The position numbers and the translations under genes are program-made. A stretch of 64,000 nucleotides of DNA from Phaeospirillum sp. (GTDB lineage: Bacteria > Pseudomonadota > Alphaproteobacteria > Rhodospirillales > Magnetospirillaceae), in NCBI GenBank assembly GCA_030824585.1, contig JAVBXM010000008.1, forward strand, positions 1 through 64,000, read 5' to 3'. Below the pieces are notes generated by a model. That model saw nothing but the letters and a program-made list of their open reading frames with translations, was not told the DNA's origin and made no database searches. Shown in pieces: positions 22,420-59,367 of the stretch; within the stretch, counting starts at the first letter, position 1; every line of letters begins with the position of its first letter.

Positions 22420-22495
22420 GTCCCCATCGTCTAGAGGCCTAGGACACCGCCCTCTCACGGCGGTAACCGGGGTTCGAATCCCCGTGGGGACGCCA
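22420..22495 (+). tRNA. tRNA-Glu (anticodon CTC)
   Basis: 76 bases including encoded CCA. Acceptor GTCCCCA pairs with TGGGGAC; D-arm region AGAGGCCTAGGACA; the anticodon stem CCGCC/GGCGG encloses CTCTCAC with anticodon CTC; T-loop GGTTCGAATCC. The gene is whole and serves as insertion site of the 37-kb element: its last 46 bases belong to the attL repeat. Confidence 0.97.
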
Positions 22496-22496
22496 A
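22450..22496 (+). repeat. attL direct repeat (47 bp)
   Basis: It begins in the anticodon arm with CCCTCTCACGG and ends one base after CCA. The identical copy is at 59475-59521. The crossover probably lies in the anticodon loop or further 3'. Confidence 0.88.
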
Positions 22497-22855
22497 TATT
22501 TTCAAGCGCTTAGCTTGGCCCTTAAGCGCATTTCCCACAGATTTCCCACAAAGTCGCCCGCGAACGAAGGCGGATTTCGGCGGCTGTCACCGTCCTTCGG
22601 AGTGGGAATAATCGGTGGTGGCCCATTGGCGACGATTTCCAAGGCTGCCGGAATTCGCCAGCCGACCGTATGAGGACGCGGAACAAGCTGTCGCATCCCT
22701 TCTCAAGGTGGTGAAGGATGATCTGCGCAAGGATGATGCCTGTGTCCACGGAGGCGGGGCCAAGCACGCCCCCCCCCAAAATAGCGTTGGGCCGAAAATG
22801 ACGAAAATCCGAACGCGATCCGGATTCCGATTGAAAACAAGGATTTATAACAGAA
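22497..22855. other. Left end of the element, non-coding
   Basis: Between attL and the hairpin at 22856 I see no convincing gene. The region holds the repeated 20-base motif (22532-22551) and a stretch of C residues near 22770. A short reverse frame here encodes peptides resembling the leader of the integrase gene (LWEM, LWEICGK) because the DNA motif is shared. Probable recombinase or excisionase binding region. Confidence 0.5.
22532..22551 (+). repeat. End-motif copy 1, possible arm-type site
   Basis: TTCCCACAGATTTCCCACAA, itself two copies of TTCCCACA. It differs by one base from the motif at 59348-59367 just upstream of the integrase gene, in the same orientation. Confidence 0.6.
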
Positions 22856-24528: not shown

Positions 24529-24931
24529 TGGTTGTCGCCAGTCCTGCCTCTCCGGCTATAGCTTGAATTCCCTTAACATACGACGTGTCATGTACCTGGG
24601 CATAAAGTTCTACGAGGTTCTCGCCGTAGACCTCCGTCCTCAAGCAAGCCCACCCTCCTCGGTCTAGCGTCCGACCAATCTCCTTTACGTATTCTCGATT
24701 CAAGGCAACGATATAGAAGCCATCCCGGAATAGGCGGCCTTCCCTCTTGCCCCCGTCCAGGATTTTTTCCGCAACACGAGATACCTCGGTCAGGCAATAG
24801 CGATGCACGTTTGACCATAGATTCCGCTCGAAGATGGAGTTCGGTGGTTGGTAACACAGGGCAGGGCGCATGCGGGAGAGACGTATATATTCGTCCAGGA
24901 TGCCTTCATGGAGACGGAAATGGCGGCCCAT
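24515..24931 (-). CDS. Hypothetical protein of the xis-AAA operon
   Basis: 138 residues from the ATG at 24931, which overlaps the stop of the excisionase-like gene (TAATG) and has AGGGAA upstream. Helical and charged: HFRLHEGILDEYIRLSRM, then RDGFYIVALNREYVKEIGRTLDRGG. No family recognised. Its place between a small DNA-binding protein and a RepA-like ATPase suggests a role in replication or excision of the element. Confidence 0.6.
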   Translation of the reverse strand: MGRHFRLHEGILDEYIRLSRMRPALCYQPPNSIFERNLWSNVHRYCLTEVSRVAEKILDGGKREGRLFRDGFYIVALNREYVKEIGRTLDRGGWACLRTEVYGENLVELYAQVHDTSYVKGIQAIAGEAGLATTNEIF

Positions 24932-25215
24932 TACAGATTTCCCTGCTGGAGTTGCCAGAGGAACGCCGCGACATCCTGAGCCAAGAATATAGTGCGGCGG
25001 CCGCATTTTGTTTTTTGCAGCTTGCCGTCACGAATCAGCTCGAAAATTTTGGTCCGTTTTAGCGGGATCAGCGATAGAAGTTCATCGAAGTCGTAGATGG
25101 GTTTGGTCAGGCCATAGGTTTGGGGAGATGGCGCTTCTGGCGTCCTCGTCCAAGGTTGCGGCATCAAAGGCAATTGATCGTGATCAACGAAACGATTATT
25201 TGGGCAAAGTTCCAT
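24931..25215 (-). CDS. Excisionase/AlpA-like helix-turn-helix protein
   Basis: 94 residues with IYDFDELLSLIPLKRTKIFELIRDGKLQKTKCGRRTIFL, here summarised as a winged-helix MerR/AlpA motif: a first helix (DELLSLIPL), a recognition helix (RTKIFELIRDG) and a wing with GRRTIFLAQD. Such proteins direct excision or control the integrase. First gene of a reverse operon of three, with GGAG 8 bases before ATG 25215. It lies about 2.7 kb from attL, while the integrase is at the opposite end. Confidence 0.75.
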   Translation of the reverse strand: MELCPNNRFVDHDQLPLMPQPWTRTPEAPSPQTYGLTKPIYDFDELLSLIPLKRTKIFELIRDGKLQKTKCGRRTIFLAQDVAAFLWQLQQGNL

Positions 25216-25310
25216 TACTTTTCTCCGTTTCTGTCTGTGGGTGGGAAACCCGAAATGGAGAATACAGGGGCACGGACACTGATGAAAAAGCGCATATCAG
25301 CATGAACTTT

Positions 25311-25798
25311 GCGCAGTTGCTGCCCGCCATGCACCGCGTCGAAGATGTCGTCGAGGTCCAGTGTGATCCGTTTGGGCACCTGGCGGAACGAGTCGCAGTA
25401 AATATCGACCATGGCCCGGCCCAGGCGCAGCGACGTCCGAACGCCGGGCAGATTTTCCAGCCGCGAGATGGTCGATTGTGAGCACGGTGCCCGGCCCTAT
25501 TCCGGCAATTGGTCGAGCGTCATCTTGAGGCCGGTGGCGTCTTTGCCGTCCTCGTATCCGGCGGCGATCATCAGTAGGCGGAAGCGGATGATCTCGGGAG
25601 CAGATGCACCACCCGATCCGGGGCGCGCGGATCGTCCAGGCAAGTGGCCAGCCGATCCGCAACACCAAGCCGCGACTCGATCTCGCGCAGGGCCAGCACC
25701 CCGGCATCCGAGGACACTTCGCCGCCGTCGAACCGGGCCACGACGGCCCAGCCTTCAATGGGTGACAGCCACGGCAGCGGCAGAGTAGGCTCAATCAT
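25311..25798 (-). pseudogene. IS1380-family transposase, N-terminal fragment, frameshifted
   Basis: VVARFDGGEVSSDAGVLALRE starts the fragment as in IS1380 transposases. A lost base after VVHLLP shifts the frame; the next piece (RFRLLMIAAGYEDGKDATGL) is in another frame, and MVDIYCDSFRQVPKRITLDL in turn follows after a short internal deletion. Similarity stops at HGGQQLR (25311), so at least half of the gene is missing. Inverted repeats of the IS are not seen. Dead element. Confidence 0.8.
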
Positions 25799-25967
25799 GG
25801 CGGGCGTGACCTCCGGAAATGGCGGGGATCGGCCTATACAACAAAATCCCATGCCAAATCAGCAGGTTAATCTACATCCGCCAACCCCGATGAATTTTCC
25901 GGGCTAGTGTTTTTGGTAGGGTTTGGGTAAATTTTCAGAATTACTCGCATAATGCTGAGGGTGGGTT

Positions 25968-33166: not shown

Positions 33167-34654
33167 TTACACGAGCGTTTGCTCCAACATGGAAAAGACC
33201 GCCCTCGGCAATTCGCCGATGGTCGCGATCACCCGGCTGCGACCGGGCAGCAGGGTGGTGATGTGAGAAGACTCGATGCCGAGGCCATAGACCTCGACGC
33301 CCTGGGCCGCTGCTGCTTTGATGGCGGCCCGAACATTGGCGGCGCCATCGGGGCTGCCATCGGTGATGATCAACACCATGCGGCGTTGTTCCGGCAGGAT
33401 GGACAGTCGCTGCAGCACCCACCACAGGGCTTCGCCCATGGGAGTCATGCCCCTGGCTCCCACATCCTGGTATTGGCCCGGACGCTCCCCGTGTCGAAGC
33501 AGAGGAACCACCGTGCCGGGTTCGCCGCCGGGAAAGGCGGTGATCCCCACCGACACGCCAATCAGGGCCATGGCCTGGGCCACAGCGCGGCAGCACTGGT
33601 TGGCAAGGCCGATCCGTTCCCGCATGGAGCCGGAAGTGTCCAGCAGCACATGCAGAGCGGTGTTGATGGCGGGGCGAGCCTGATGGGTGGCGAATACCCG
33701 TGGATTTCCCACGGCCACACCATGGAGACGGCGGGTGTCGATTTTCCCGGCTCTGGCGGGTTTGTGCCTGACCATCCGGGATGATTGCACCAATCCATGC
33801 AGGCGTGCCCGCAGGCCCGCAATGGCATGGTCGATTGCGGCACGATCCTTGGCGTCGGTGGGCAGACGAGGTTTGTTTCCCACAATGGCGACGGTGAGGC
33901 GATTGATCTCCGTCGCGTTCCGCCCCAGAGATTTCCTCAGCACTTGCCCGAAATCGTCGGGGAGATCGTTTTCCCCGGCGGAAATCAGGCTTTGAATATC
34001 GGTACTGATCGCCAAATCCGGGGATGGATTTTGCCCAGGAGACGGAGCTGAATCCTTCAGGCAGCGGATGATCTGGCGGGCATAGTCCAGGCAGGCCAGG
34101 CTATCGGGACAGTGACCGCGCATCCGGTCCAGGACCACTTCCACATCCGGACGCAAGCCCGGCCACTGGCGGTCGATCACGGCAACGGCCTCCCGGCACC
34201 GGGTTGCCAATTCCGGCACGCTCCAGGAGCGAACCGTCAGCAGCAGCCAATCCAGAACCACGGCCACCCCCGAAGGGAGCGTTGACGCCCCCTCCAGGAA
34301 CAGGTGGCGGATCAGCCAGGTAAAATTTTGTCGGCAGCCGGGATAATATGCCGCCAGCTTGGCTTCGACCCGCCAATCCTCGAAGATGTTCCAGATGTGC
34401 CGCTCCAGCGGGGTGGTGTCGGCCTGGGAAATGGCCCGGAACTCGGTGAAGCGGACATGCGCCGCCTCGTGGTCGATATAGCCGCGCACCAAACCCAGGA
34501 AGGCGGCATCGGCTTCAGCGGGAAGGCCGGGAAGGCGGATGACCTTGCCCGTCGTGTAGGCGTCGGTGCCGCCGATCTCGACGGCAACGCCATAAGCCCG
34601 CCCCAGGGCATCGGCCAGCAGGGGCAGGCTTTGCAGGATGGCTGAATTGTGCAT
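33167..34654 (-). CDS. CobT-like VWA-domain protein
   Basis: 495 residues. An N-terminal part has DHEAAHVRFTEF (HEAAH at 62-66, a zincin-like site) and FEDWRVEAKL around 91-100, the pair of motifs seen in CobT-like proteins. The C-terminal VWA domain (from about 333) has a MIDAS site DTSGSMRE at 339-346, with the later Thr in ARGMTPMGEAL and Asp in IITDGSPDG. Encoded 15 bases after DUF3150 and with a MoxR-type ATPase gene before it: such pairs form chelatase-like machines in which the ATPase acts on the VWA protein. It is not a plain cobalamin gene here, as no cob genes are near. Confidence 0.85.
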   Translation of the reverse strand: MHNSAILQSLPLLADALGRAYGVAVEIGGTDAYTTGKVIRLPGLPAEADAAFLGLVRGYIDHEAAHVRFTEFRAISQADTTPLERHIWNIFEDWRVEAKLAAYYPGCRQNFTWLIRHLFLEGASTLPSGVAVVLDWLLLTVRSWSVPELATRCREAVAVIDRQWPGLRPDVEVVLDRMRGHCPDSLACLDYARQIIRCLKDSAPSPGQNPSPDLAISTDIQSLISAGENDLPDDFGQVLRKSLGRNATEINRLTVAIVGNKPRLPTDAKDRAAIDHAIAGLRARLHGLVQSSRMVRHKPARAGKIDTRRLHGVAVGNPRVFATHQARPAINTALHVLLDTSGSMRERIGLANQCCRAVAQAMALIGVSVGITAFPGGEPGTVVPLLRHGERPGQYQDVGARGMTPMGEALWWVLQRLSILPEQRRMVLIITDGSPDGAANVRAAIKAAAAQGVEVYGLGIESSHITTLLPGRSRVIATIGELPRAVFSMLEQTLV

Positions 34655-34669
34655 GGGAGTTTGAAGCCC

Positions 34670-35665
34670 TTACCATAGGCCGAGGGAGTCCAGCGTGGAG
34701 GCGGGTTCCATCGGCAGATCAGAGGGAAGGTCGTCGTCGTTGAAATCGGGAAAGCGATCGGCGTCCATGTCCGGAGTCTGATCCGCAGCCGGCAGGGCCA
34801 CCAGCCCGAGCAAGGCACCGTTGGGATTCTGGCCTTCGATGATCCGTTGACCGTGTTCGACCATGGCGGCGGGATCGCGGAGCAGGCAGACCAGCCCCTG
34901 AAGCCCCACCAAGGCGGTGCCGGTGATCGGCCCCTTATGGGGCACAGCCGCCAAGGCCGCGTCGATCACATCCACCAGGGGCGTCACCCGAGGCTCGACG
35001 AAGGACAGCCCGGCCAACTTGTGCCGCAGGTTTTTGATGGGAGACAGAGCCTTGGCCGTGACCTCGGCTTTCCCGGCGAAGCTCTTGTGCCACGCCTCAT
35101 CGGCCACCTTGGCGACTTCCCCGAACAGCGAACCGCCGAGGGCATTGACCGCCTCGGTCAGAGTCTGCCCGGCCTGGCCTTTGGGTGGCACGACCTTGAA
35201 CATCTGCCATGCGAAGCCCAGCCGTGCCCGCACGGTGTCGATACCCACCAGCGAGTGGGCGATCAGCGATTCCCAGCCGGGATTGTTGCCGACCCATTCC
35301 TGGATGGCCTGATCGTAGCGGGCGAGGAAGGAGTCCTTGGCGGCGGCGAAATCGGTTGCGATGACTTTCAGTCCCTCGCTCACCGGCTTGACGGCGTTTT
35401 CGGGAATCGCCCAACCGCCGAGGAACCGCATGCCGTGGCGGTCCAACAGCGCAATGGCGCGGGCCTTGAGGGTGGAGAACACCCGCAAATCCTCGGGATT
35501 GCAGACCTTCTTGCTCCCCAGCGAGGCCAGTTTTTCCGGGGGCAAATCCAGGGTGCCGAAATCGGCGGGGGTCAGTTTCTTCCTGGCGGACCAGATATTG
35601 ACATCCAGCCGCAGGGCGATGAGCTGCTTCAAAACGGTGATGTCGGTGGAGATGGCATTGGTCAT
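34670..35665 (-). CDS. DUF3150-like protein
   Basis: 331 residues, soluble, largely helical (DITVLKQLIALRLDVNIWSA at the start, LRVFSTLKARAIALLDRHGM). An acidic C-terminal tail (DMDADRFPDFNDDDLPSD) precedes the stop. The sequence and its place between a MoxR/CobS-like ATPase and a VWA protein match DUF3150 proteins of integrative elements. It starts 200 bases after the ATPase gene and is followed after 15 bases by the VWA gene. Role unknown; likely the third part of the ATPase-VWA system. Confidence 0.75.
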   Translation of the reverse strand: MTNAISTDITVLKQLIALRLDVNIWSARKKLTPADFGTLDLPPEKLASLGSKKVCNPEDLRVFSTLKARAIALLDRHGMRFLGGWAIPENAVKPVSEGLKVIATDFAAAKDSFLARYDQAIQEWVGNNPGWESLIAHSLVGIDTVRARLGFAWQMFKVVPPKGQAGQTLTEAVNALGGSLFGEVAKVADEAWHKSFAGKAEVTAKALSPIKNLRHKLAGLSFVEPRVTPLVDVIDAALAAVPHKGPITGTALVGLQGLVCLLRDPAAMVEHGQRIIEGQNPNGALLGLVALPAADQTPDMDADRFPDFNDDDLPSDLPMEPASTLDSLGLW

Positions 35666-35732
35666 GGCATTTTTCCTTTAGCAGGGTGCGGAAAAACTCC
35701 GCTTCGCGGTCGGGCGACTGCCCGAACCCGTT

Positions 35733-35841
35733 CGGAGGCGCAGCCTCCGAGCCTCCAGTTTGTTTAAAATCAATAATTTAAAAGCTGGAGGGTTGGGGAG
35801 GCTGCGCCTCCCGATTGGGGGATCGGGGGCAAAAGCCCCCG
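35733..35841. repeat. Cluster of three hairpins between the ATPase and DUF3150 genes
   Basis: CGGAGGC/GCCTCCG at 35733-35749, GGGAGGC/GCCTCCC at 35796-35812 and CGGGGGC/GCCCCCG at 35824-35841 are three stem-loops with three- or four-base loops, around an AT-rich core (TTTAAAATC to ATTTAAA). The two first share the GGAGGC core. They may set the level of downstream genes in the operon. Confidence 0.6.
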
Positions 35842-35865
35842 AATTTTGAGTTTTTCCGCAGCTTG

Positions 35866-36840
35866 TTACGAAGCGGAGGGAAACAGCCGCTGCCCCAGCT
35901 CGTGGAGCAAAGCGCGGGTGGGCGGAGAGGCGCGAAACCCCAGCGCCCGGTCGAGGGCATAGGTCACGGGCTGGATGCCCGCGCGGGCCAAGGGCTGGAA
36001 CCGCTGGGTCAGATCGGCCCAGCGGATCAAGGTGCGGGTGGAAAAGGTGACTTCGATGCTTTGGTGCCGGCCGTCGCTGTCGCCGATGAACAGGCGGCGA
36101 ACCTCGTTGGCGAATTCGACCATGGTGGAACGCAGATCGGCAGGCAGAGCCGGAGCCCGGCGTTCGAGAATCTGGAGTTCCGCCGTGGAGTCTGGGTAGG
36201 CCACCTCGCACAGCCAGAACCGATCCATGAAGGCGAGGTTCTGGCGAAGCGTGCCCTGGTAAAGCCCGGTCCCATCGGACCCGCCATTGGTGTTGGCGGT
36301 GGCGACGAAGCGGAACATCGGATGGGGCGGAATCACCTCGCCGCCGTTTTCCGGGATGCAGAGCGGCGCACCATCCAACACCCCGTTGAGCCCGGCTGCG
36401 GTGGCCGGGTCCAACAGGTCGATCTCGTTGAGCAGAAACAGCCCGCCGTGCTTCATCGCCAGGGCCAGCGGCCCGTGCTCGAAGCGCATGGAGCCGTTGT
36501 CCACGGTCAGGTGCCCGGCCAGGTCCGGGAACTCCAGCCGTCCGTGGCCGGTGACATCGAACACCGGGTAATTCAGCCGCGCCGCCACTTGGCGGACCAA
36601 GCTGGTCTTGCCGCTGCCGGTGGGACCGAAGAGGTAGAGGGGATCGCTCCCGCTCATGAACCACACCACCAAATCCCGCATGATCGCGGGGAACAGGTAG
36701 TCGGGATCAACGGCGGGAGTGTGCCGGCAGGGAGAAGCGTAGCCCTTGATTTTGCGGCCCGAAGGCTGGCCGCTGAACAAGGCTCCGGCATCGAAATCGG
36801 CAGCCGAAAGGCTGCCGATCTCCGCGAGGGGATCGGTCAT
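35866..36840 (-). CDS. MoxR/CobS-like AAA+ ATPase
   Basis: 324 residues from ATG 36840, which has GGAG 8 bases upstream. Walker A GPTGSGKTS at 72-80, Walker B with LLNEID at about 136-141, sensor 1 FVATANTNGG and an Arg-rich end region (FSTRTLIRWADLTQRF) as in MoxR/CobS ATPases. It starts an operon with DUF3150 and the VWA protein. By analogy with MoxR-VWA pairs it should remodel or load metal into a target together with the VWA protein; the target is unknown. Confidence 0.85.
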   Translation of the reverse strand: MTDPLAEIGSLSAADFDAGALFSGQPSGRKIKGYASPCRHTPAVDPDYLFPAIMRDLVVWFMSGSDPLYLFGPTGSGKTSLVRQVAARLNYPVFDVTGHGRLEFPDLAGHLTVDNGSMRFEHGPLALAMKHGGLFLLNEIDLLDPATAAGLNGVLDGAPLCIPENGGEVIPPHPMFRFVATANTNGGSDGTGLYQGTLRQNLAFMDRFWLCEVAYPDSTAELQILERRAPALPADLRSTMVEFANEVRRLFIGDSDGRHQSIEVTFSTRTLIRWADLTQRFQPLARAGIQPVTYALDRALGFRASPPTRALLHELGQRLFPSAS

Positions 36841-36946
36841 GGAATACTCCATTGAGAAGATGTGGAAATGGGGCAAACCATTGCCCCTCTTGGCATTACC
36901 GTCCGGCCTGCCTAAAATGACCCCGACCAATGCACCCGAGGGATTC

Positions 36947-37306
36947 ATGGGATCGGCATTGAACGCCAAAGGCGTCGGCACAGCCAACGCCGAAACGGTT
37001 AATGATCGTGCCAAGCTGCTGATGCACCGCTTGATCGCGCGTCGCATCCGCTCGCGCCCAGACCTCATCGAATCTGCGAAGATACGGATTGCCCAGAAAC
37101 GGCAGGCCGGGCCGTTGTTCGATTACATTCCGGAGTGGGAAAGCTTGCTGTCCCAGGACGCCGAAACCCTGTGCCGCTCCATTACCAGCCGGGGAGAAGC
37201 GATGGTGCGCTTGCGCCTTAGCTCTCCTCTGGTCGATGTCGTGGACTTCCGCGATCCTCAACTGCGTCGGCGTATCTGGCGCAAGGCCAAGCAGGGTTTG
37301 CGCTGA
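36947..37306 (+). CDS. Small protein paired with a nucleotidyltransferase
   Basis: 119 residues from ATG 36947 (GAGGG 4 bases upstream; ATG 36917 lacks a site). Helical and basic: RAKLLMHRLIARRIRSRPDLI, then FDYIPEWESLLSQDAETL, and a tail of VDFRDPQLRRRIWRKAKQGL. Its stop is one base before the ATG of the nucleotidyltransferase-like gene. This spacing is typical of toxin-antitoxin pairs, with this as likely antitoxin, but the family is not recognised. Confidence 0.6.
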   Translation: MGSALNAKGVGTANAETVNDRAKLLMHRLIARRIRSRPDLIESAKIRIAQKRQAGPLFDYIPEWESLLSQDAETLCRSITSRGEAMVRLRLSSPLVDVVDFRDPQLRRRIWRKAKQGLR

Positions 37307-40876: not shown

Positions 40877-43408
40877 TTGGACTTTGATGACATCGACTTC
40901 TCTGGAGAGGTCGCTCGACCGACCAACCCCATCGAAATTTTCGAAGCTCTGCCAAGGTTGCCGGACACGCCAAATGACCTATGGCGAGGCCAAGCGCGAG
41001 CGCTAGAGGAGTGGCATTCGGCGCGCGCTAAGCGCGACGTCCTGGTGTCTCTAAACACCGGTGCGGGAAAGACGCTCGTTGGATTGCTAATCGCACAAAG
41101 CCTGGTTCATGAGGGCATTGAGAACGTCGTTTATGCCTGCGCGACGATAGACTTGGTGGAGCAGACAAAGAGAGAAGCAGAGCGTATTGGGATCTCCTGC
41201 ACCACCCGTGTTCGACAAGGGTTTGACAATGACCTATTCGAGACCGGAAGGGCGTTCTGCATTACAACTTATCAGGCGCTATTTAATGGCCATAGTGCTA
41301 TTGTTAGTCGATATTTCCCTGGAGCGGTCATCCTGGATGACGCGCACGTTGCTGAGTCGGTTATGCGAAGTGCGTACACCTTGCGTCTCCAAGGTGAGCA
41401 GACTGCAGCACTTCAGAAGGCTATTGTAGAACTCTTTGAGCCCGACTTTGCGGCACTCGAAAAGCGGGGCGAATTTCAGGATGCCGTGGCTGGCCGGTAC
41501 GGCAAGATAGTCCTTGCCCCTGCGCGCTCAGTCCGAGAACGCAGCGCTCGACTGCGAGCTCTTCTCGAAGAACATGGTGTGCAAGACGGGGATTTGTCCT
41601 ATCCCTTCGCACACCTTCGGGACAAAATAGACAGGTGCGCGGTTCTTTTTGGCTACGGCTGTGTAGAAGTAACGCCACCATTCCTTCCCGCGCTGGCCCA
41701 TCCGATTTTTGAGCGGAAAATCAGGCGTATCTACCTCTCTGCGACTTTAAAATATAAGGCGGACTTGGCTCGAGCGTTTGGTCGGTTGCCTCAACATACG
41801 GTGGAGCCAGACAGTGACGCAGGTAATGGCGAGCGTTTAATATTGCAGTCGCGGTTGCTGGACGCTTCGAAGAAGGAAAAGAAGTTCGGCAAGGAGTTAA
41901 TTAAGCAACTGGCAACCACGCGGAAGGTGGTAGTGGCCGTTCCGACTTATACTGACGCAGAGGAATGGGCTGAAGTAGGAAATCCGCCAACTCCTGACCA
42001 ATTCTCGGCAGAGCTTGAGAAATTCCGCAAGGATCCAGCTGGTTCATTCATTCTCGTTAACCGCGTGGACGGCATCGATCTGCCCCACGACACCTGCCGC
42101 ATCATGATAGCAGAGGGGTTACCAAAGGGCGGTTCGCTCCTAGAGCGCTTCCAGTGGGAATTTTTGCGCATGCGGCACTTCCAAGCGGCACGCATAGCCA
42201 ATCGGGTCGTCCAGCTCTTTGGTCGCATCAACCGCGGTCGTAGCGACTTCGGTACGGTCTTAGTCAGCGGCGAAGAGTTTAATTCGTGGCTAGCGACCGA
42301 GCGAAATTTGGCGCTGCTTCCTGATCTCCTGCGCAAGCAGATCCAGCTTGGCGCAATAGTGCAGGAGCGGATGGAGATTAAGAATGACGCTAAAGTCACC
42401 GATATAGTCGATCGGGTAATTAACCGGGATAAGGGTTGGCTTGATCTGTACGCTCGCTTCTTCGGGCAGGTTAAAGTAGCTGAACGACATGTGGAGCGCA
42501 CGGAGATCGCGGAGAATGGTCTCGCAAATGCTGCGTTGGCCGAGGCGGAGTTCGCCCAATTGTGTTGGGACGGGGATTGGGGCGCGGCAAGGAACGTGTT
42601 TGAGGAAACTATTGAGAGTACTGTGCAGGCTGATGAGTACTTGGCGGGGTGGCACGAATTTTGGCTTGCGGCATGTCATGATCAAGAGGGGGACCCTGAA
42701 GGAGCTCTTGTCGCCTACCGTAAGGCCCGACATAGACTTGGTTCTAATTTGTATATACCGCGAGGAGGAATAGGAGGGCAGGATGAGAATGCCGTAGCTC
42801 TGACGCCTTTTGCGCAAGCTTTGGACAGAGTTGTTTCTCTTACCGCCCATAAGCAGTTTGAGAAGGTTTTCGAGAAACTGCGCGCTGCAATGACCCACTT
42901 GGATGGGGGTACGCCAGGCCAAATGGAGGCTGCTTACCGAGCTCTTGGCGAAGCTCTTGGCTTCATATCTACGCGTCCTGATAACGACGCCGGAACTGGT
43001 CCAGATGTACTTTGGGATTCCCCGGATAATCAATGTTGTCTTGCTATTGAGCTTAAAACGGATAAGAAAACACCCGCCCGGTACACAAAGGACGACATCG
43101 GGCAAGGGCACAACCACCTAGAATGGGTAGCCGCCAACTTTCCTGATAGGAAATGCTTGGGGCTCATTTACGTTGGGCCGGAGGGCGTATGCACCGAAGA
43201 GGCCAGCCCTTCGAAAATGATGTTTCAGGGGACGCCCAGCAACGCCGTTGTCGTCCGGGATCGCCTTTTTGCCTTGATTTCTGACCTCCGGAAACTGCTT
43301 CCGCTCGAGCGCCCCAATGCCATGAAGGAGGCTGCTTCACTAAACCAATGGTCTCTAGCTGCGCTCGTCAGCGAACTGGGCCCGCATGACCTAAAAAATG
43401 GCGCATGA
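40877..43408 (+). CDS. DEAD/DEAH-type helicase fused to a PD-(D/E)XK nuclease
   Basis: 843 residues from a TTG behind a G-run. SF2 helicase core: Q-like region LWRGQARALEEWHSARAKRD, motif I NTGAGKT at 60-66, Ia VVYACATIDLVEQT, motif II DDAH at 154-157, motif III LSAT, and motif VI in QLFGRINRGRSDFG near 445-458. After a helical middle comes a C-terminal nuclease site: Asp710 in GPDVLW and Glu725-x-Lys727 in CLAIELKTDKK, a PD-(D/E)XK pattern. Such fusions occur in restriction and anti-phage systems. Ends 96 bases before the metallopeptidase gene and 1.4 kb before the Hsp90-like gene, all in one direction. Confidence 0.85.
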   Translation: MDFDDIDFSGEVARPTNPIEIFEALPRLPDTPNDLWRGQARALEEWHSARAKRDVLVSLNTGAGKTLVGLLIAQSLVHEGIENVVYACATIDLVEQTKREAERIGISCTTRVRQGFDNDLFETGRAFCITTYQALFNGHSAIVSRYFPGAVILDDAHVAESVMRSAYTLRLQGEQTAALQKAIVELFEPDFAALEKRGEFQDAVAGRYGKIVLAPARSVRERSARLRALLEEHGVQDGDLSYPFAHLRDKIDRCAVLFGYGCVEVTPPFLPALAHPIFERKIRRIYLSATLKYKADLARAFGRLPQHTVEPDSDAGNGERLILQSRLLDASKKEKKFGKELIKQLATTRKVVVAVPTYTDAEEWAEVGNPPTPDQFSAELEKFRKDPAGSFILVNRVDGIDLPHDTCRIMIAEGLPKGGSLLERFQWEFLRMRHFQAARIANRVVQLFGRINRGRSDFGTVLVSGEEFNSWLATERNLALLPDLLRKQIQLGAIVQERMEIKNDAKVTDIVDRVINRDKGWLDLYARFFGQVKVAERHVERTEIAENGLANAALAEAEFAQLCWDGDWGAARNVFEETIESTVQADEYLAGWHEFWLAACHDQEGDPEGALVAYRKARHRLGSNLYIPRGGIGGQDENAVALTPFAQALDRVVSLTAHKQFEKVFEKLRAAMTHLDGGTPGQMEAAYRALGEALGFISTRPDNDAGTGPDVLWDSPDNQCCLAIELKTDKKTPARYTKDDIGQGHNHLEWVAANFPDRKCLGLIYVGPEGVCTEEASPSKMMFQGTPSNAVVVRDRLFALISDLRKLLPLERPNAMKEAASLNQWSLAALVSELGPHDLKNGA

Positions 43409-44452: not shown

Positions 44453-44771
44453 TGCAGCAGCAGTTGGATCAACGTTTTTTCGGAAGCGGTTCTTACCGAC
44501 TGGGAAACAGCCCCACGCCAGATCCGCGGGGTGATTGTGGATGGCACTGCGGGACGGCATTAACAATGCCACGCTGATTTTCTGTCAGTGAGAAGGCTAC
44601 TGACCTGCATTGGGAAAATTCCTCCAGTTTGAAGTAGAGTCCGGCCCCTCAGAGGACGGACGACATGAAGCGCAGCAGGTTTATCTAATTCAAAAGCGGA
44701 CCGCACATATTGCGTCGCCCCCGGCGACATGCGTCTATGTTCGTTCGTCGGACTGTGTAGAAGTAAGCACC
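44453..44771. other. Intergenic stretch before the Hsp90-like gene
   Basis: 319 bases. The Hsp90-like frame is open from 44610, but ATG 44772 is the better start. No other gene, repeat or terminator seen. A promoter for the last gene may be here, so the three genes are not necessarily one transcript. Confidence 0.4.
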
Positions 44772-47390
44772 ATGGGGATGTTCGAAGATACCGGAATTTG
44801 GACCCGTTCGATGGATAGGGGAACCGCGCGGGATGACGCTGCGAGGGAGAGACTCCGAGTCGCGTACCGCACCTTTTGGGATAACGCGGTTGTTTTATCG
44901 CGCGAAATTCAGCGCGATATTTCGAATCTCACGCTCCACGACGAAGCCCATTTCGAGGCCCTTTGGAGCAGAGCTGACCAGATTGCGGGACCTAGCCTGT
45001 CGCTCACTCCACTTGAGGCGTTTGTGCTGGGAGGAGCGATCCTGCTGCACGACAACGCCAACTCGCTCGCGGCGTTCGAGGGCGGGCTGGAAGCGCTGAA
45101 GGTTACGCCAGAATGGCGAGATGCGGCGGCCGAATGGCTCGAGCGGGCAGTTGACGAGGCCAAACCTCCGGCGGTTCCGCCGGAGGCAGTCCCACAGGTG
45201 TTGTTTGATGTACTACGTGGCTTGCATGCTGAGAGGGCGCGCACGCTTGCCAGTATGACCGTCAACGCAGGTGGAAAGACATTTCACCTCCTGCCCGATG
45301 ACCAATTGAGAATCCATCTGGGCGATCTCATCGGTGAAATCGCGGCCAGTCACCATTGGGATATTTCGACCCTCCCGGACCGCCTCCCACCGCTTGTAGG
45401 AACCTTAGCTGGAATGCCGGCAATGTGGACGATCCGTCCCGTGCTTCTCGCATGCCTGCTTCGCTGTGCGGACGCCGTTCAACTCGACCAACAGCGCGCT
45501 CCCGACTTTTTGTATGCGATGCTGCGGCTGAGGGGCGTGTCCGAACTGCACTGGCGTGCGCAGAACAGGCTGGCGACGCCGGTTGTGGCGCCAGACGACC
45601 CCTCGGCCCTGATCTTCAGCTCAACGATGCCCTTTAGAGCGGATGATGCGGAAGCATGGTGGGTTGCCCATGACGCCATTCAGGTTGCAAACCGCGAGCT
45701 TCAGGCCTCGAACTCTCTTTTGCGAGACCTCCGACTGCCCCCTTTCGCGGTGAACAGGGTGGAAGGTGCGCGCTCCCCCGCGGCTCTCGCGCAGCACATG
45801 CGCGTTGTCGGCTGGAGGCCGGTCCAAGCTGAGGTGAAGATCACGCAAGTCGACAAAGTTGTGGAGATGTTTGGCGGCGCCGAGCTGTACGGGCAGGATC
45901 TTTCGGCTGCCCTACGTGAACTCATTCAAAACGCCGCTGATGCCATCCGCTTCAGACGTGAACTAGAGCCACCGACTGCCGATTACAATGGGAGCATTAT
46001 CCTTCGAATGGGACCTTGCTCTGGCCAAGGTGGGGATGTCTGGCTGGAGGTAGAGGACGACGGCTTGGGCATGTCCGAGGCGGTGCTCACGGGACCACTA
46101 ATCGACTTCGGCTCAAGTTACGTCTCATCAGCCCTTGTGAAATCCGAGCGCCCAGGGCTGCTGTCCAAGGGACGGAAAAGGATCGGAAAATTCGGCATTG
46201 GCTTCTTCTCGAGCTTCATGCTCGGGGACGAGGTGATCGTTACGTCCCGACCATTCGATGCCGGATTTGACCAAATACGCACTCTTCATTTCCGCCAAGG
46301 TATAGGCCATCGTCCTCTGCTGCTTGACGATCGTCCGTCTGATCTTGGGTGCAACACCTCGACGCGCGTACGACTTCGGTTGACGCCGGAACGATGCGAA
46401 GAGTTACTGAGGATGCCGGGAGGTTTTGGGGAGAAATTACCGCTTACCCTAACTGACCTAGTGGGAATGCTCTGCCCGATGCTGGATGCCGACATCTATG
46501 TCGAAGTCGGGGGCATGCGGCGTATGGTCCACTCCCGCCGCTGGATGGACGAGGATCGCCTCTCATGGCTTCGGCGGATCACTGGGGCCGATGCCCGCAA
46601 CGAAACGCATCTCGACGAAAATCTCATTGCGGCCGCTCCTCTCCTTACTTTTCTCGATCCGAACGATCCGAACGCTGGCCTTGCCTGCATTACGGGATCA
46701 CCCGGTGCGGGTGTTATAGCGGTGGGGACTTTGAGGGCGAGTATGGTCTTCAATCGCTTCTCGGATGACTTCGTTGGAGCGATAGACCACCTGCCGGACA
46801 ACCCGCGGCGTAGTCACGGAAAGCCAAGATTGGATGCGCATCTGGCAGAATGGGCCTCGGATCAGGCCCTCCGTAACCACGATATAGGTACTCCCGTCCC
46901 CCGCCGCATTTACGCTGCCGAGCGCGTTGCTCAATTCGGCGGCGACGCAACACCGATCGCGATGGTCCGGCTGAACCGTGAGTGGGTCGATCTCCAAACA
47001 GTACTCGACCAGCTAGCTGCGTCAGGACCGATCTATGCGCCATTGAAGCTTTCCGGCCATGAAAAACGATTGATGATGACCGTCGTGCGCGAGCGACACA
47101 CTGGATTCCTCGACAACTATCTTCCCGGTGAATTGGAATATTTGATCCCAACGATTGAGACGAGCTCCGATGATAAAGCGCTTTATGCAGTACCAACCGA
47201 GGAAGATTCGGCCGAGAACGGCATCTGCATGCTTCTTACGAGGCTTGCGCTTTCTCGTGGACTAACTGTCAAAGGTGAGATTCAGCAACGTGTTGACTTC
47301 GCGCGCTATGTTGGACCGGCTTCCCCCCGGGAGGGTTTGGAACCCGGGAAGCTTATCGGTTGCAGCGGCCTCCGCTTATGGGTTGAATGA
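44772..47390 (+). CDS. HD-domain protein fused to an Hsp90-like ATPase
   Basis: 872 residues from ATG 44772 (an in-frame TTG at 44610 would add 54). Residues 40-330 look like an HD phosphohydrolase-type domain: H56-D57 in LTLHDEAHFEALWSRAD, H93-D94 in GGAILLHDN and a later RCADAVQLD. Then the Bergerat ATPase: N box ELIQNAADAIRFRR (Asn387), D box VEDDGLGM (Asp430, Gly431-x-Gly433), the lid GKFGIGFFSSFMLGDEV and the Thr region STRVRLRLTP. The rest (from about 570) resembles the Hsp90 middle part. HD plus Hsp90-like ATPase fusions are known among conflict systems. The end is not the C-terminal dimer domain of HtpG. Confidence 0.8.
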   Translation: MGMFEDTGIWTRSMDRGTARDDAARERLRVAYRTFWDNAVVLSREIQRDISNLTLHDEAHFEALWSRADQIAGPSLSLTPLEAFVLGGAILLHDNANSLAAFEGGLEALKVTPEWRDAAAEWLERAVDEAKPPAVPPEAVPQVLFDVLRGLHAERARTLASMTVNAGGKTFHLLPDDQLRIHLGDLIGEIAASHHWDISTLPDRLPPLVGTLAGMPAMWTIRPVLLACLLRCADAVQLDQQRAPDFLYAMLRLRGVSELHWRAQNRLATPVVAPDDPSALIFSSTMPFRADDAEAWWVAHDAIQVANRELQASNSLLRDLRLPPFAVNRVEGARSPAALAQHMRVVGWRPVQAEVKITQVDKVVEMFGGAELYGQDLSAALRELIQNAADAIRFRRELEPPTADYNGSIILRMGPCSGQGGDVWLEVEDDGLGMSEAVLTGPLIDFGSSYVSSALVKSERPGLLSKGRKRIGKFGIGFFSSFMLGDEVIVTSRPFDAGFDQIRTLHFRQGIGHRPLLLDDRPSDLGCNTSTRVRLRLTPERCEELLRMPGGFGEKLPLTLTDLVGMLCPMLDADIYVEVGGMRRMVHSRRWMDEDRLSWLRRITGADARNETHLDENLIAAAPLLTFLDPNDPNAGLACITGSPGAGVIAVGTLRASMVFNRFSDDFVGAIDHLPDNPRRSHGKPRLDAHLAEWASDQALRNHDIGTPVPRRIYAAERVAQFGGDATPIAMVRLNREWVDLQTVLDQLAASGPIYAPLKLSGHEKRLMMTVVRERHTGFLDNYLPGELEYLIPTIETSSDDKALYAVPTEEDSAENGICMLLTRLALSRGLTVKGEIQQRVDFARYVGPASPREGLEPGKLIGCSGLRLWVE

Positions 47391-48417: not shown

Positions 48418-50658
48418 ATGCGAATGGCAATCCGGTTCGTCCTCCCCCTTCTCCTCGTGCTCGGCGGCATCGCCTGGGGCGGAGCGCCGCTGGTCGGCTC
48501 GCTGGTGGAGCGTTGGTTCCGCGCCGACGTGGAGATGCGCTCGCAGCTGGTGTTCAACTCGGTCCAGGAATCGGTGACCGGGCTGGTCCTGGCCAAGGCC
48601 GACCGCAAGATCGACGCCCTGTTCAAGCACATCACCCAGGACGAGCGCCTGCTCGCCCTGGGCCTGTGCACGCCCGATGGGCAGTTGGCCCAGAGGTCCA
48701 CGGCATGGCCGAAAGCCCTGGCCTGTCCCCCGGCACCCGTCCTGAACCATGCCTTCGCCGTCCAGCACATCGACGGCGGGCCGGTCCTGGTCGCAACCTT
48801 CGCCCTGGCCGCTGACAACACCTATCTCGGCCGCCTGGTCATTCTCCACGATTTGCGCTTCATCGAACGGCGCAGCGACAGCGCCGAGCTTTATCTCGCG
48901 GGCTTTCTCGCCCTGCTGGGATTGGGGGCGGCGGGCGTGACCGTGGTGGTCGCCCGGCTGACGCTTCGCGGCTGGATCAAGGCGGTGCGCAAGGGATTGG
49001 CGGGGAACAGCGACGGCAAGGACGATTCCGCCCTTTCGTCAGATGTGGAGCCGCTGGTGCGCGAGATGCGCAAGATCCTGCGCGATCTCGACACGCCGCG
49101 CGTCCTGACCGAAGCCATCCGGGTGGATTGGAGCCCTGACAGCCTGCGCAGCGTGTTGCGCGACGAGTTGCCCGGGGCCGAGGTGATGGTCATCTCCAAC
49201 CGCGAGCCCTACATCCACAATCTCGAGGACGGCAAGGTGGTGCTGCAACGCCCGGCCAGCGGTCTGGTGACGGCGCTGGAACCCATCATGCGGGCCTGCG
49301 GCGGCACCTGGATCGCCCATGGCAGCGGCTCGGCCGACCCGTCCATGGTCGACGAGAACGATCATCTTCAGGTGCCGCCGGACGCGCCCGCCTATACCCT
49401 TCGCCGCCTGTGGCTGTCGGACGAGGAACAGGACGGCTATTACTACGGCTTCGCCAATGAGGGCATGTGGCCGCTCTGTCATATCGCCTTCGTGCGGCCC
49501 AGCTTCCGCGCGGCGGACTGGGAGCAATACGTGGCGGTCAACCGCAAGTTCGCCGATGCCGTGGTGGCCGAGGCCAAAACGCCCAATCCGGTGGTCCTGG
49601 TCCAGGATTACCACTTCGCCCTGCTGCCCAGGATGGTGCGGGAACGCCTGCCCGAGGCGACCATCATCACCTTCTGGCACATTCCCTGGCCCAATCCCGA
49701 GGTCTTCGGCATCTGTCCATGGAAGGAGGAGATTCTGTCGGGACTGTTGGGCTCGTCCATCCTGGGCTTCCACACCCAGTTCCACTGCATCAATTTCCTG
49801 GATTCGGTGGACCGCTTCCTGGAAAGCCATATCGACCGTGAACACAGCACGGTGCGGGCCGGAAACAGCACTACCCTGGTGCGCCCCTATCCCATATCCA
49901 TCGAATGGCCGCCCAGCGCCCTGGCCAGCCAGCCGCCCGCCGAAAAGTGCCGCGAGAGCGTGCGGCACAAATACGGCATCGCTCCCGAGACCAAATTGGC
50001 GGTGGGCGTCGAACGGTTCGATTACACCAAAGGCATTGCCGACCGCTTCCATGCGGTGGGCAGCCTGCTGGCCGCCCATCCCGAATGGATCGGCCGCTTC
50101 ACTCTGCTGCAGATCGCCGCGCCGACGCGCTCGCGCCTTGCCGCCTATCGCGACACCCAGGTCGAGGCGGAAAGGGCTGTCGCCGATGTCAATGCATGCT
50201 TCGGCCGCAACGGCTGGGTGCCGATCATCCTGGTGCCCAAACATCATGAGCCCGAGGACGTGTTCACCCTGTTCCGCGCCGCCGATGTCTGTCTGGTGTC
50301 CAGCCTGCACGACGGCATGAATCTGGTGGCCAAGGAATTCGTCGCCGCCCGGGACGACGAGGACGGCGTGCTGGTGCTGTCCACCTTTGCCGGGGCGTCG
50401 CGCGAATTGCTGGAGGCGCTGATCGTCAATCCCTATGACGTCCAGGCCATGGGCGAGGCGCTGCATACGGGCCTGTCCATGCCCGCCGTGCAGCGCCGCG
50501 AACGCATGCGGCTGATGCGCGAGATGGTGGGAGAGAACAACATCTACTTCTGGGCGGGCCGGATGCTGCTGGATGCCGCCCGCATGCGCAAGCGCCGTCA
50601 TATCGAATATCGCATCGAAGCGGTGACCCAGGGCGCCATCATGGTGGGGAACACATGA
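48418..50658 (+). CDS. otsA: Trehalose-6-phosphate synthase with membrane sensor domain
   Basis: 746 residues. Uncommon: residues 1-180 form a membrane sensor unit, with helices at about 5-23 and 156-180 around an outside loop of 130 residues that contains [18 protein letters not shown] and [13 protein letters not shown]20 synthase follows (255-730): [52 protein letters not shown] (Arg and Lys for phosphate) and [18 protein letters not shown]. It makes trehalose-6-phosphate from UDP-glucose and glucose-6-phosphate. The gene overlaps otsB by 4 bases. The fusion suggests direct control of synthesis by an outside signal, for example osmolarity, which is inference. SD GAGGAG. Confidence 0.92.
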
Positions 50659-51416
50659 TGGGTGGCCTTCCTCTCTCGGCGGACCAGGCCGGGTGGGCCT
50701 TGTTCCTGGATATCGACGGGACCTTGCTTGACCTGGCGCCCACTCCCGACGGGGTGGTCATTCCCGAAGGGTTGCCGCAAGTGCTTGACTCCCTGGCCCG
50801 CGCCTTGGGGGGCGCCTTTGCCCTGGTCAGCGGCCGGTCTCTCGACAGTATCGACAGTCTCTTTCCCGGCCCATGGGATGCGGTGGGCTGTCACGGCGCG
50901 GAATGGCGCCTGGGCGGCCAGAGGTTCACTCCGCCGCCGCCCTGGCCCGACGGCCTTGTCGCAGGGATCGAGGCCGCCCGGCGCAGGCTTCCCGGCGTCA
51001 TGATGGAGCGCAAAAGCCAGTCCCTGGCGCTCCATTTCCGCGCCGCTCCCGAGCAGAAAGCCGCCGTCCGTACCCTGGCCGCAGCCGCCGTCGCAACGGA
51101 TGCGCATGGCCTCGACCTGCTGGAGGGAAAATCGGTGATGGAGATCATTCCCGCCGGAAACAGCAAGGGCCTGGCCATCGAGCGCTTCATGCGACTACCC
51201 CCCTATGCCGGTCGGCGGCCGGTCTTCGCCGGCGATGATGTGACCGATGAAAGCGGTTTTATCACCGTCAACGCCATGGGCGGACTGTCCATTCATGTGG
51301 GTGACAGCCCAACGACCCAGGCGCTGTTCCGCTTTCCCGATCCCCGGGCCATGCGCCATTGGCTGAACGGACTCGATACCGCAATAGGAGGACACCAAGA
51401 CCATGAGCACCCTTGA
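50655..51416 (+). CDS. otsB: Trehalose-6-phosphate phosphatase
   Basis: 253 residues, HAD fold: nucleophile motif LFLDIDGTLLDLAPTPD, motif II FALVSGRSLDSIDSLF and motif IV RPVFAGDDVTDESGF, with the cap motif GCHGAEWR. Removes the phosphate from trehalose-6-phosphate. It overlaps otsA (ATGA-type, 4 bases) and the GH15 gene (14 bases). The length fits bacterial OtsB. Confidence 0.93.
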   Translation: MMGGLPLSADQAGWALFLDIDGTLLDLAPTPDGVVIPEGLPQVLDSLARALGGAFALVSGRSLDSIDSLFPGPWDAVGCHGAEWRLGGQRFTPPPPWPDGLVAGIEAARRRLPGVMMERKSQSLALHFRAAPEQKAAVRTLAAAAVATDAHGLDLLEGKSVMEIIPAGNSKGLAIERFMRLPPYAGRRPVFAGDDVTDESGFITVNAMGGLSIHVGDSPTTQALFRFPDPRAMRHWLNGLDTAIGGHQDHEHP

Positions 51417-53181
51417 TCTCGGCGTCATCGGCAATTGCAACATTGCAGCCCTGGTGGACGCGCAAGCCACCATCGTCTGGGGGTGTTTCCCCCGCATGGA
51501 CGGTGACGCGGTGTTTCATGCCCTACTTAACGAAGGAAAGGGCGATGGAATGTTCTCCATCGAACTGGTCGACCAGCTTCATTCGGAACAGGCTTACCTT
51601 CCAAATTCGGCCATCCTGCGCACGACGCTTTATGACCATCATGGCGGTATTGCCGAGGTGGTGGATTTCGCGCCTCGCTTCGCCTTGTACGAGCGCATCT
51701 TCCGCCCGCCCATGATCGTCCGGCGGATCAGGGCGATCCAGGGGCGGCCGCGGGTGCTGGTGCGGCTGCGGCCCGGTTTCGAGAATGGCGGGCTGAAGCC
51801 CCAGCTCACCCGGGGCAGCAATCATCTGCGCTATGTGTCGCCCGCCCAGACGCTGCGCCTGACCACCAATGCGCCGGTCTCCTACATCACTGAGGAACGG
51901 CCCTTCGTCCTTGACCGGCCCATCGACATGCTGCTGGGCAGTGACGAAAGCCTTCAGGCCGGGGTGGAGACCACGGCCCGCGACCTGTTCGAGCGGACGC
52001 TGGACCATTGGCGCAGTTGGGTCCGCTCGCTGTCCATTCCCTTCGAGTGGCAGGACGCGGTGATCCGTGCGGCCATCACCCTGAAGCTGTGCAATTTCGA
52101 GGAAACCGGCGCCATCGTCGCGGCGCTCACCACCTCCATCCCGGAAGCGCCCGAGACCCAGCGTAACTGGGATTACCGCTTCTGCTGGCTGCGCGACGCC
52201 TATTTCGTCATCCATGCCCTGAACCGTCTCGGCGTCACCCGGACCATGGAGGACTACCTGCGCTTCATCAACGACATCGTCGAGGAAGCCCAGGACGGGG
52301 AGTTGCGGCCGGTCTACGGCATCACCCGCGACACCTCCATCGACGAGATCACCATTCCCCATCTGGCCGGGTATCGGGACTTCGGGCCGGTGCGGGTGGG
52401 CAATCAGGCCCATATCCAGATCCAGAACGACGTCTATGGCAGCGTGGTGCTGGCCTCGACCCATGCCTTCTTCGACCAGCGCCTTGCCCATCCGGGCAAT
52501 GCCGCCCTGTTCGAGCAGTTGGAGCGCCTGGGCAATCGCGCCGTCGCGGTGTTCGACAAGCCCGACGCGGGGCCGTGGGAGTTGCGCACCATCGCCTCGG
52601 TCCACACCTTCTCGTCCGTGATGTGCTGGGCCGCCTGCGATCGCCTGGCCAAGATCGCGCGCCATATCGGCCAGACCGACCGCGCCATCTACTGGCGCCG
52701 CGAGGCCGACCGCCTGCACGCCATCATCTGCCAGCGGGCCTGGAATGCTGAAAAGGGCTGCTTCGCCTCCACCTTCGACGGCGACGAGTTAGACGCTACC
52801 CTTCTTCTGCTCCACGAAGTGGATTTCCTGGCCGCCGACGACCCGCGCTTCGCCGCCACGGTGGATGCCGTCGCCGGCACCTTGCGCACCGGCGACTTCC
52901 TTTATCGCTATGTGGCCGAGGACGATTTCGGCCGCCCTTCGACCGCCTTCCTCATCTGCGTCTTCTGGTATATCGACGCTCTGGCCGCCCTGGGGCGGCA
53001 CGACGAGGCCCGCGCCCTGTTCGAGACGGTGCTGGCGCGTCGTAATCCGCTGGGGCTGCTATCCGAGGATATCGACCCACGCAGCGGTGAATTGTGGGGT
53101 AATTTCCCCCAGACCTATTCCATGGTCGGGCTGATCAACTGCGCCATGCGGCTGTCCAGGAATTGGGAGGACGCTTTCTGA
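51403..53181 (+). CDS. GH15-family glycoside hydrolase, possible trehalase
   Basis: 592 residues. N-terminal beta domain (VIGNCNIAALVDAQATIVWG) as in GH15; the alpha/alpha barrel shows RNWDYRFCWLRDAYFVIHAL near the first catalytic region, and the C-terminal LLSEDIDPRSGELWGNFPQ contains a likely second catalytic Glu. GH15 enzymes act on alpha-glucans or, in some bacteria, on trehalose. The neighbouring otsAB make trehalase a good guess; glucoamylase is the alternative. Overlaps otsB by 14 bases and the next gene by 1 base. Such a gene would balance trehalose synthesis against use. Confidence 0.88.
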   Translation: MSTLDLGVIGNCNIAALVDAQATIVWGCFPRMDGDAVFHALLNEGKGDGMFSIELVDQLHSEQAYLPNSAILRTTLYDHHGGIAEVVDFAPRFALYERIFRPPMIVRRIRAIQGRPRVLVRLRPGFENGGLKPQLTRGSNHLRYVSPAQTLRLTTNAPVSYITEERPFVLDRPIDMLLGSDESLQAGVETTARDLFERTLDHWRSWVRSLSIPFEWQDAVIRAAITLKLCNFEETGAIVAALTTSIPEAPETQRNWDYRFCWLRDAYFVIHALNRLGVTRTMEDYLRFINDIVEEAQDGELRPVYGITRDTSIDEITIPHLAGYRDFGPVRVGNQAHIQIQNDVYGSVVLASTHAFFDQRLAHPGNAALFEQLERLGNRAVAVFDKPDAGPWELRTIASVHTFSSVMCWAACDRLAKIARHIGQTDRAIYWRREADRLHAIICQRAWNAEKGCFASTFDGDELDATLLLLHEVDFLAADDPRFAATVDAVAGTLRTGDFLYRYVAEDDFGRPSTAFLICVFWYIDALAALGRHDEARALFETVLARRNPLGLLSEDIDPRSGELWGNFPQTYSMVGLINCAMRLSRNWEDAF

Positions 53182-58053: not shown

Positions 58054-59340
58054 CTATGCCCGCTTCAGCGCCACCACCGTTCGGGGTTGAACGATCCCCA
58101 ACTTCGGTAGAGCTGCCCGGATGGCCGTGGCGATGTGGGACGGAGCCAGATGGGCATAGTGCTTTTCGGTCATCCGGGTGTCGGCATGCCCCAGGTTGGC
58201 GGCAATAACCGAGAGGTGGGCTCCGGCCTGGACCAGATGGCTGGCATAGGTGTGGCGCAGGATGTGAAAATTGGCGGGAGGCACGATATTGGCGGCTTCG
58301 CAGGCGTCGGCCAATGGGCGGAACTGATGTGACTTCCCCCAGGCCGTCCCATCTGGCCGGGCGAAGACCAAAGCGTTGCTGGCGCGTCCAACAATGTGAT
58401 CGGTAAAGAACGCAGCGCCGTCGTCACCGAGAACGACATGCCGGGGCTTACCTCCTTTGCTGGCACGAATGGCAATGGTCTGGGCGGTTTCGTCAAAGTC
58501 GGAGCAGCGCAGAGCCGTCAATTCCCCATAGCGGCACCCAGTCAGTAATGCGGCCTGGACGAGGGGGCGGAAGGATTCACCGCAGGCATTGACCAAGCGG
58601 ACGCATTCATCGGGCTTCAGATAGCGGATTTTTGCCGAATCGGCCTCTCGAAACGGCTTGACCCGACGCCACGCGATATCGGACTGGATTTTCCCTTCAT
58701 GAAAAGCGTAATTCAGCGCCGCCTTTAGGGCGGTCAGCGTGCGGTTGGCGGTGGCTTGCCGACGCCGAAGGGCGTCATGATCCTCGGAGGTGTCTCGGTA
58801 TTTCTGGTCATCCCCCTTTCTCGTGCGAAGGCGAGGCGGTGTGGCAGCGACCTCGGCGTGCCAATCGCGCAGGCGCTTTGTCGTCAGCTTTTCGAGCGTC
58901 ACATCCCCCAATTTGGGGAGGATGAAGGCATTGATCCGACTTTCCAACTCCTTCAGGGATTTGCCGCCCTTTCTTTTGTATTCGGAAACATAATCCTGCA
59001 TCACCACCGTGATCGTGGCCTTGCCGGGTGTCATGGTCCTCTCGCCGACGGCCTCCATGGCCGACGAGGAAAACCATTCACGCGCTTTGGTTTGGGCATG
59101 GACATAGTCGAGAGCGGTGAGGCCATCGGCGTCCATCACATCATCAGCGGGGCCGAGCGAGACCTCGCGGCGAAAGCCCTCCTTCACGAACTTTGCGATC
59201 CACATCCCGCCCTTTGCCCCCTTGCGATAGCCGAGGGCGCAACCGGGGGCGATCGTGGTCCAATGGATGGTCTTCCCTGTCGGCAGTTTGGAGCGGGCGG
59301 AGCGAGTGTCAATCTTGGCGTTGCGGACGGTACGGGCCAT
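58054..59340 (-). CDS. int: Tyrosine recombinase (phage-type integrase)
   Basis: 428 residues from ATG 59340 (GGGAAG upstream). N-terminal arm-binding-like part (GYRKGAKGGMWIAKF), SAM-like domain (SLKELESRINAFILPKLGDV), then the catalytic domain with Arg in LTGCRYGELTALR, His-x-x-Arg in FHILRHTYASHLVQAGAHL and LGHADTRMTEKHYAHL with the nucleophile Tyr. It belongs to the DUF4102-free long integrases of tRNA-inserted islands. It reads inward from attR, 135 bases away. It should recombine attL/attR or attP with the tRNA-Glu end. Confidence 0.94.
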   Translation of the reverse strand: MARTVRNAKIDTRSARSKLPTGKTIHWTTIAPGCALGYRKGAKGGMWIAKFVKEGFRREVSLGPADDVMDADGLTALDYVHAQTKAREWFSSSAMEAVGERTMTPGKATITVVMQDYVSEYKRKGGKSLKELESRINAFILPKLGDVTLEKLTTKRLRDWHAEVAATPPRLRTRKGDDQKYRDTSEDHDALRRRQATANRTLTALKAALNYAFHEGKIQSDIAWRRVKPFREADSAKIRYLKPDECVRLVNACGESFRPLVQAALLTGCRYGELTALRCSDFDETAQTIAIRASKGGKPRHVVLGDDGAAFFTDHIVGRASNALVFARPDGTAWGKSHQFRPLADACEAANIVPPANFHILRHTYASHLVQAGAHLSVIAANLGHADTRMTEKHYAHLAPSHIATAIRAALPKLGIVQPRTVVALKRA

Positions 59341-59347
59341 TGCGAGC

Positions 59348-59367
59348 TTCCCACAAATTTCCCACAA
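59348..59367 (+). repeat. End-motif copy 2, possible arm-type site
   Basis: TTCCCACAAATTTCCCACAA, one base different from 22532-22551, in the same orientation. It lies immediately upstream of the integrase start, overlapping its ribosome-site area, so binding here could also control the integrase gene. Confidence 0.6.

Follow-up and report, generated by a model that had tools for sequence, protein, structure and literature searches.

Which protein reads the 20-base motif that recurs near both ends of a mobile island in the window, that is, in the whole stretch of 64,000 nucleotides analysed here? The initial annotation had proposed arm sites for the integrase or the excisionase. The island spans 37 kb, is inserted in tRNA-Glu and is bounded by a 47-bp repeat of the 3′ half of tRNA-Glu(CTC). 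At the left junction, the tRNA-Glu (CTC) gene used as integration target is intact (22420–22495, plus strand, detected with ARAGORN). attL (22450–22496, plus strand) extends from the anticodon loop of the tRNA gene as far as its 3′ end and is repeated exactly in attR (59475–59521, plus strand), which carries the tRNA 3′ half. Judging from the start of the att repeat, the recombination core would lie in the anticodon loop of tRNA-Glu. A tyrosine integrase of 428 residues (Phage_integrase) is encoded near the right end, at 58054–59340 on the minus strand. Its catalytic RKHRH pentad and tyrosine are present, R270, K295, H359, R362, H385 and Y395 being invariant or nearly so in 67 sequences.

A doublet at both ends of the island

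The motif was verified at both places. TTCCCACAGATTTCCCACAA occupies positions 22532–22551 and TTCCCACAAATTTCCCACAA positions 59348–59367, both on the plus strand. The left (distal) doublet is made of the half-sites TCCCACAG and TCCCACAA, and the right (int-proximal) doublet of two copies of TCCCACAA. Within each doublet, the half-sites are 11 bp apart, which corresponds to one DNA turn. The claimed distances to the att repeats also hold, with 35 nt between attL and the left doublet and 107 nt between the right doublet and attR. A gap of 7 nt separates the right doublet from the ATG codon of the integrase (59340, minus strand).

In the 64-kb window, the two 20-mers are the only matches at up to 3 mismatches, with 0 expected by chance. 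A pattern search at 0 mismatches found the two-half-site pattern exactly twice in the whole 4.94-Mb genome. At 2–3 mismatches, 2 further matches appeared, which is the background level as judged from the reversed-pattern control (3 matches). The TTCCCACA octamer by itself is fairly common, with 7 copies in the window versus 1.7 expected. The signal therefore lies in the pairing of half-sites 11 bp apart, at both ends. The half-site kept among the closest relatives is TCCCACAA, not TTCCCACA.

Spacing, words and the integrase N-terminal domain

Relatives of the integrase, mostly 45–61% identical, were collected from public genomes and viral contigs. When the first relatives were searched for exact TTCCCAC, no shared doublet was found. 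Comparing spacing instead of sequence, however, revealed doublets in the relatives. A near-perfect direct repeat (at least 8 of 9 bases) at exactly 11 bp, no more than 90 nt upstream of int, was observed in 54 of 76 non-redundant relatives, as compared to 0–1 in the controls (coding sequences, shuffles). The next commonest spacing upstream of int, 10 bp, occurred in 8 relatives and other spacings in fewer, while a few relatives (for example L035/L006) were without a clear doublet at the expected place. Overall, the search of related islands suggested in the initial annotation yielded about 70 islands with the same layout, most of them at tRNA-Glu-like targets. Their doublets lie at the same place as those of the window and usually carry another word. 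These words differ widely (TACGGAAA, TTTGCCTAA, TTTGGGTAA, TTCTCCAA, TGTCCAAT, TGGCTAAT and others). The TCCCACAA word is also found with the three closest non-redundant integrases, G405 (61% identical), G765 (59%) and G255/G256 (56%).

Both att ends were found in 17 elements (12 plus five more), and in all of them the element's own word recurs inside attL, with both half-sites in 16 elements and one clear half-site in L058. This count covers the elements whose far end was located; an eighteenth, L138, with the repeat in the opposite orientation, was set aside. For the first 12 elements, the own-word score was 0.877 versus 0.614 (sd 0.039) with ends reassigned. The maximum with reassigned ends was 0.813 in 100,000 permutations and the value of 0.877 was never reached. 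In G256, the far copy is located on a different contig, adjacent to an intact tRNA-Glu; that genome contains no copy besides these two.

The distance from the doublet to the tRNA T-loop is nearly constant (median 149 nt, IQR 148–150, 64 elements) whereas the distance to the int ATG varies from 7 to 71 nt across relatives. This indicates that the doublet is positioned by att and not by the gene, as one would predict if the site has to be within reach of the core. On the far arm, distances cluster at 59–61 or 68–74 nt, one helical turn apart. As is characteristic of arm-type sites, the doublets are short repeated sites inside the element, flanking the core on both sides and having a fixed geometry to it. 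Exact island ends can also be marked simply, by looking for an 11-bp doublet at the appropriate distance from att.

We then considered the integrase itself, whose start (MAR...) is kept in relatives. The AlphaFold model has a mean pLDDT of 90.9, with well-predicted N-terminal strands at residues 25–31, 34–40, 45–53 and 56–65, followed by a well-predicted helix at 79–97. When the N-terminal domain was modelled alone, its best match in the PDB, with a probability of 0.98 and an E value of 0.058, was 3jtz; this entry is the arm-type binding domain of HPI integrase. The predicted model therefore has the N-terminal arm-binding fold, a beta-sheet plus a helix, of AB-domain integrases. The Pfam Arm-DNA-bind model (PF13356, DUF4102, Arm-DNA-bind_3) gave no match in the window integrase, so that membership of the P4/IntSXT (DUF4102) subgroup is not claimed. 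The Pfam arm-domain model matches 5 of 67 family members weakly (best E 0.0013).

Distances between words were correlated with distances between integrase residues 1–85 when the catalytic domain was allowed for (partial Mantel r 0.25, p 0.0005). Conversely, the catalytic and core-binding domains added nothing significant once the N-terminus was allowed for. The nine most associated of the 428 positions, T24, R57, A35, E59, K53, A31, T29, V52 and C34, span residues 24–59, and the covarying residues lie on or beside the N-terminal strands. With 35 phylogenetically independent pairs, the partial r was 0.71 for the N-terminal domain (permutation p < 0.0002) and 0.08 for the catalytic domain; the relatives are not independent, and the paired test deals with kinship only in part. 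Overall, the word tracks the integrase N-terminal domain, as judged by covariation. The AlphaFold strands, the covarying residues 24–59 and the 3jtz match designate the four-stranded N-terminal beta-sheet, residues 25–65 (59146–59268, minus strand), as the putative reader of the arm word.

Particular sequences illustrate this relationship. Between integrases L121 and L116, 22% of the positions in the catalytic domain differ (78% identical) and 73% of those in the N-terminal sheet, and their words are unrelated; the L121 word is common to L146/L147. This pair likely reflects a natural swap of the N-terminal module. Gln57 is found with TACGGAA words in 12 of 13 cases and Arg57 with TACGGCA words in 4 of 4. 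Arg57 is also found in all four TCCCACAA integrases, counted ungapped in two where the alignment put a gap. For the TACGGCA and TCCCACA words taken together, Arg57 thus totals 8 of 8, with these two sequences counted ungapped. This residue-57 pattern was spotted post hoc and is to be taken as a lead. A protein–DNA recognition code in this integrase family is possible.

Neighbouring sites and readers of the doublets

Other sites lie between the doublets and the att repeats. A putative IHF-binding site, TTTCAAGCGCTTA, with 1 mismatch to WATCAANNNNTTR, is located at 22500–22512 (plus strand), and an exact IHF consensus, AATCAATGAGTTA, at 59412–59424 (minus strand). All 17 elements have an IHF-like site on the far arm (0.6 expected), at a constant position shortly beyond the end of the tRNA. 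On the int-side arm, it is found in 27 of 63 relatives versus 6.7 in shuffled sequences. A cluster of 10-bp phased repeats, candidate excisionase sites, lies beside the right doublet (59376–59401, plus strand), and a second 10-bp phased cluster (GCGTTCGCCGGCGTCCGGAAAGTCACG; 59440–59466, plus strand), possibly with the same function, is inverted with respect to the first. Such 10-bp phased repeats between the doublet and attR were observed in 39 of 58 relatives versus 4.6 in shuffled sequences. They form two clusters in opposite orientation (p 0.001) with an A+T-rich centre between them. The phased clusters are candidate sites for an excisionase filament. A winged-helix excisionase occupying about 10 bp per subunit, like RdfS (PMC11963761), would be the natural reader of such repeats.

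In the island, the candidate excisionase (RDF) is a small AlpA/HTH_17-like protein encoded at 24931–25215 on the minus strand. Its match to PF12728 HTH_17 (E 1.4e-4, 22.5 bits) is below the curated cut-off of 27, and a search for this protein in the relatives gave only 8 weak matches. Fragments of a DDE transposase (PF13701) are found at 25215–25852, adjoining this gene. Near the right end of the island, a promoter-like site for int, GTGAGA-17-CATAAT, matches the consensus at 59367–59395 (minus strand), and its –10-like hexamer ends at 59367, touching the right doublet. Across relatives, there was no strong sign of a –10 hexamer shared by all beside the doublet, the highest proportion at any one offset being 17%.

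Taken together, the sequence comparisons indicate that the tyrosine integrase encoded by the island very probably uses the doublets as its arm-type (P and P′) sites. The integrase part of the initial proposal is strongly supported by the agreement between the words at the two ends, the fixed att distance and the N-terminal covariation. In contrast, the excisionase is unlikely to be the main reader, since the word follows the integrase N-terminus and a separate phased set is present. That the doublets are sites of the AlpA/HTH_17 RDF, with the integrase using other sites, is very improbable. Such a protein is indeed encoded in the island, and excisionases such as RdfS bind near att and the int promoter (PMC11963761). 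However, covariation links the word to the beta-sheet at the integrase N-terminus, the presence of equal doublets in the two arms suits the integrase better and the repeats of an excisionase are expected near a 10-bp phase. A second protein may nevertheless share the doublets, which would be compatible with the covariation alone. Even less probable is a main function as operators for integrase autoregulation, the far copy being a relic or a second operator. The contact of the –10-like hexamer with the right doublet would fit this function, as would the self-repression of KplE1 IntS by binding to arm sites near the –10 box (PMC2951348) and the reduction by ICEMlSymR7A IntS of its own expression (PMC11963761). 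But the far copy, inside attL and up to tens of kb from int, is kept in 17/17 elements, and it is the att distance that is fixed while that to the gene start varies.

Least credible of all is that the doublets serve a host protein, either as DnaA-box-like sites or for some other universal factor, or that they are replication iterons. TTTCCCACA lies two mismatches away from a DnaA box. However, related islands have entirely different words (TACGGAAA, TTTGCCTAA, TTCTCCAA, TGTCCAAT), each matching within its own island, which contradicts a universal host factor. DnaA boxes, iterons and chance were all rejected as the source of the doublets.

From the computed features, namely the matched doublets, the geometry and the N-terminal covariation, we infer that the integrase binds and bridges these sites, that IHF and the excisionase take part and that int is autoregulated. 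In the circular island, the att core would have a doublet on each side, one about 35 bp beyond the tRNA end and, towards int, one at a distance of about 107 bp. The N-terminal domain of the integrase (residues 1 to ~70) would grip the half-sites, with its beta-sheet in the major groove, while the catalytic domain acts on the core. Together, bending at the IHF-like sites of both arms and the 10-bp phased candidate excisionase sites of the int-side arm would let the integrase link arm to core and would set the direction. As the putative int promoter is in contact with the right doublet, integrase bound there probably represses its own gene. Autoregulation through the right doublet, also suggested in the initial annotation, is plausible; as the position of the doublet is set by att and not by the gene start, it would be a by-product.

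Known systems, tandem islands and cargo

Arm-type sites are usually identified by footprinting, element by element. The about 70 related islands constitute a natural data set of co-varying arm words and N-terminal domains, which makes two questions testable: the way in which DNA is read by an integrase arm domain, and a possible role of arm specificity in preventing neighbouring islands from excising each other. Pairs of 11-bp repeats are already known as arm-type sites (PMC3203893), as are cases in which the word varies along with the N-terminal part of the integrase (PMC3203893; PMC8074189), in small sets. The present comparison adds, as a well-supported picture, a larger scale, a doublet with strict 11-bp spacing whose reach to att is fixed, and co-variation of word and arm domain over a shared target.

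Lambda-type AB-domain integrases (PMC8138268) similarly have short repeats on both attP arms, an N-terminal beta-sheet domain, IHF-like bends and excisionase candidates on one arm. The predicted system described here differs by two tandem half-sites per arm, strict 11-bp spacing and no Pfam arm-domain match for the integrase. The attP of ICEMlSymR7A in Mesorhizobium (IntS/RdfS; PMC11963761) also belongs to an alphaproteobacterial element and has arm-type motifs near int, but it contains five P sites with the consensus TGKTGGTATC, as compared to two doublets of a different word here. In that system, IntS exerts negative autoregulation and the winged-helix RDF occupies about 10 bp per subunit (PMC11963761). 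In cluster K mycobacteriophages (PMC3203893), pairs of 11-bp repeats likewise flank the attP core and the arm word changes alongside integrase N-terminal residues 17 and 19. There, however, few phages were compared, the target is tmRNA, one pair is inverted in CrimD, and 11 bp is the length of the repeat whereas it is the spacing here. Oenococcus prophages (PMC8074189) share direct repeats as putative arm sites and tRNA targets, and their integrase changes are concentrated in the N-terminus, but their repeats are of about 10 bp, in 4–6 copies, in one bacterial species. Finally, in KplE1 (IntS/TorI; PMC2951348), the int promoter overlaps the arm-site region beside the tRNA, as here; negative autoregulation was established by experiment in KplE1, whereas it is a prediction for the window integrase.

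In eight relatives (L044, L048, L050, L123, L139, L140, L221 and L068), a second doublet with a different word was observed beyond attR. Its position is that expected for the left arm of an adjacent island, as for islands in tandem on the same tRNA-Glu. Tandem neighbours differ in arm word in 8 of 8 clear cases. As evidence for exclusion, this proves little, since only about 9% of random pairs (211/2415) share a word. Tentatively, and with somewhat less than even confidence, we suggest that the arm word and the N-terminal domain could form an interchangeable, fast-diversifying lock-and-key module. Such a module could be swapped onto a similar catalytic domain (L121 versus L116) and would obey a residue–base code (Gln57-A, Arg57-C:G), letting islands on one tRNA-Glu stack in tandem without cross-reaction.

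The island also carries trehalose-related cargo at 48418–53181, with a GT20 synthase, a trehalose-phosphatase and a GH15-like enzyme. An HD-CE + HATPase protein (44610–47390) and a ResIII/DEAD helicase (40877–43408) are possible defence cargo. At 33167–37068, a CobT/VWA protein, a DUF3150 protein and a CbbQ-like AAA protein are encoded consecutively and may form a MoxR/VWA-type module.
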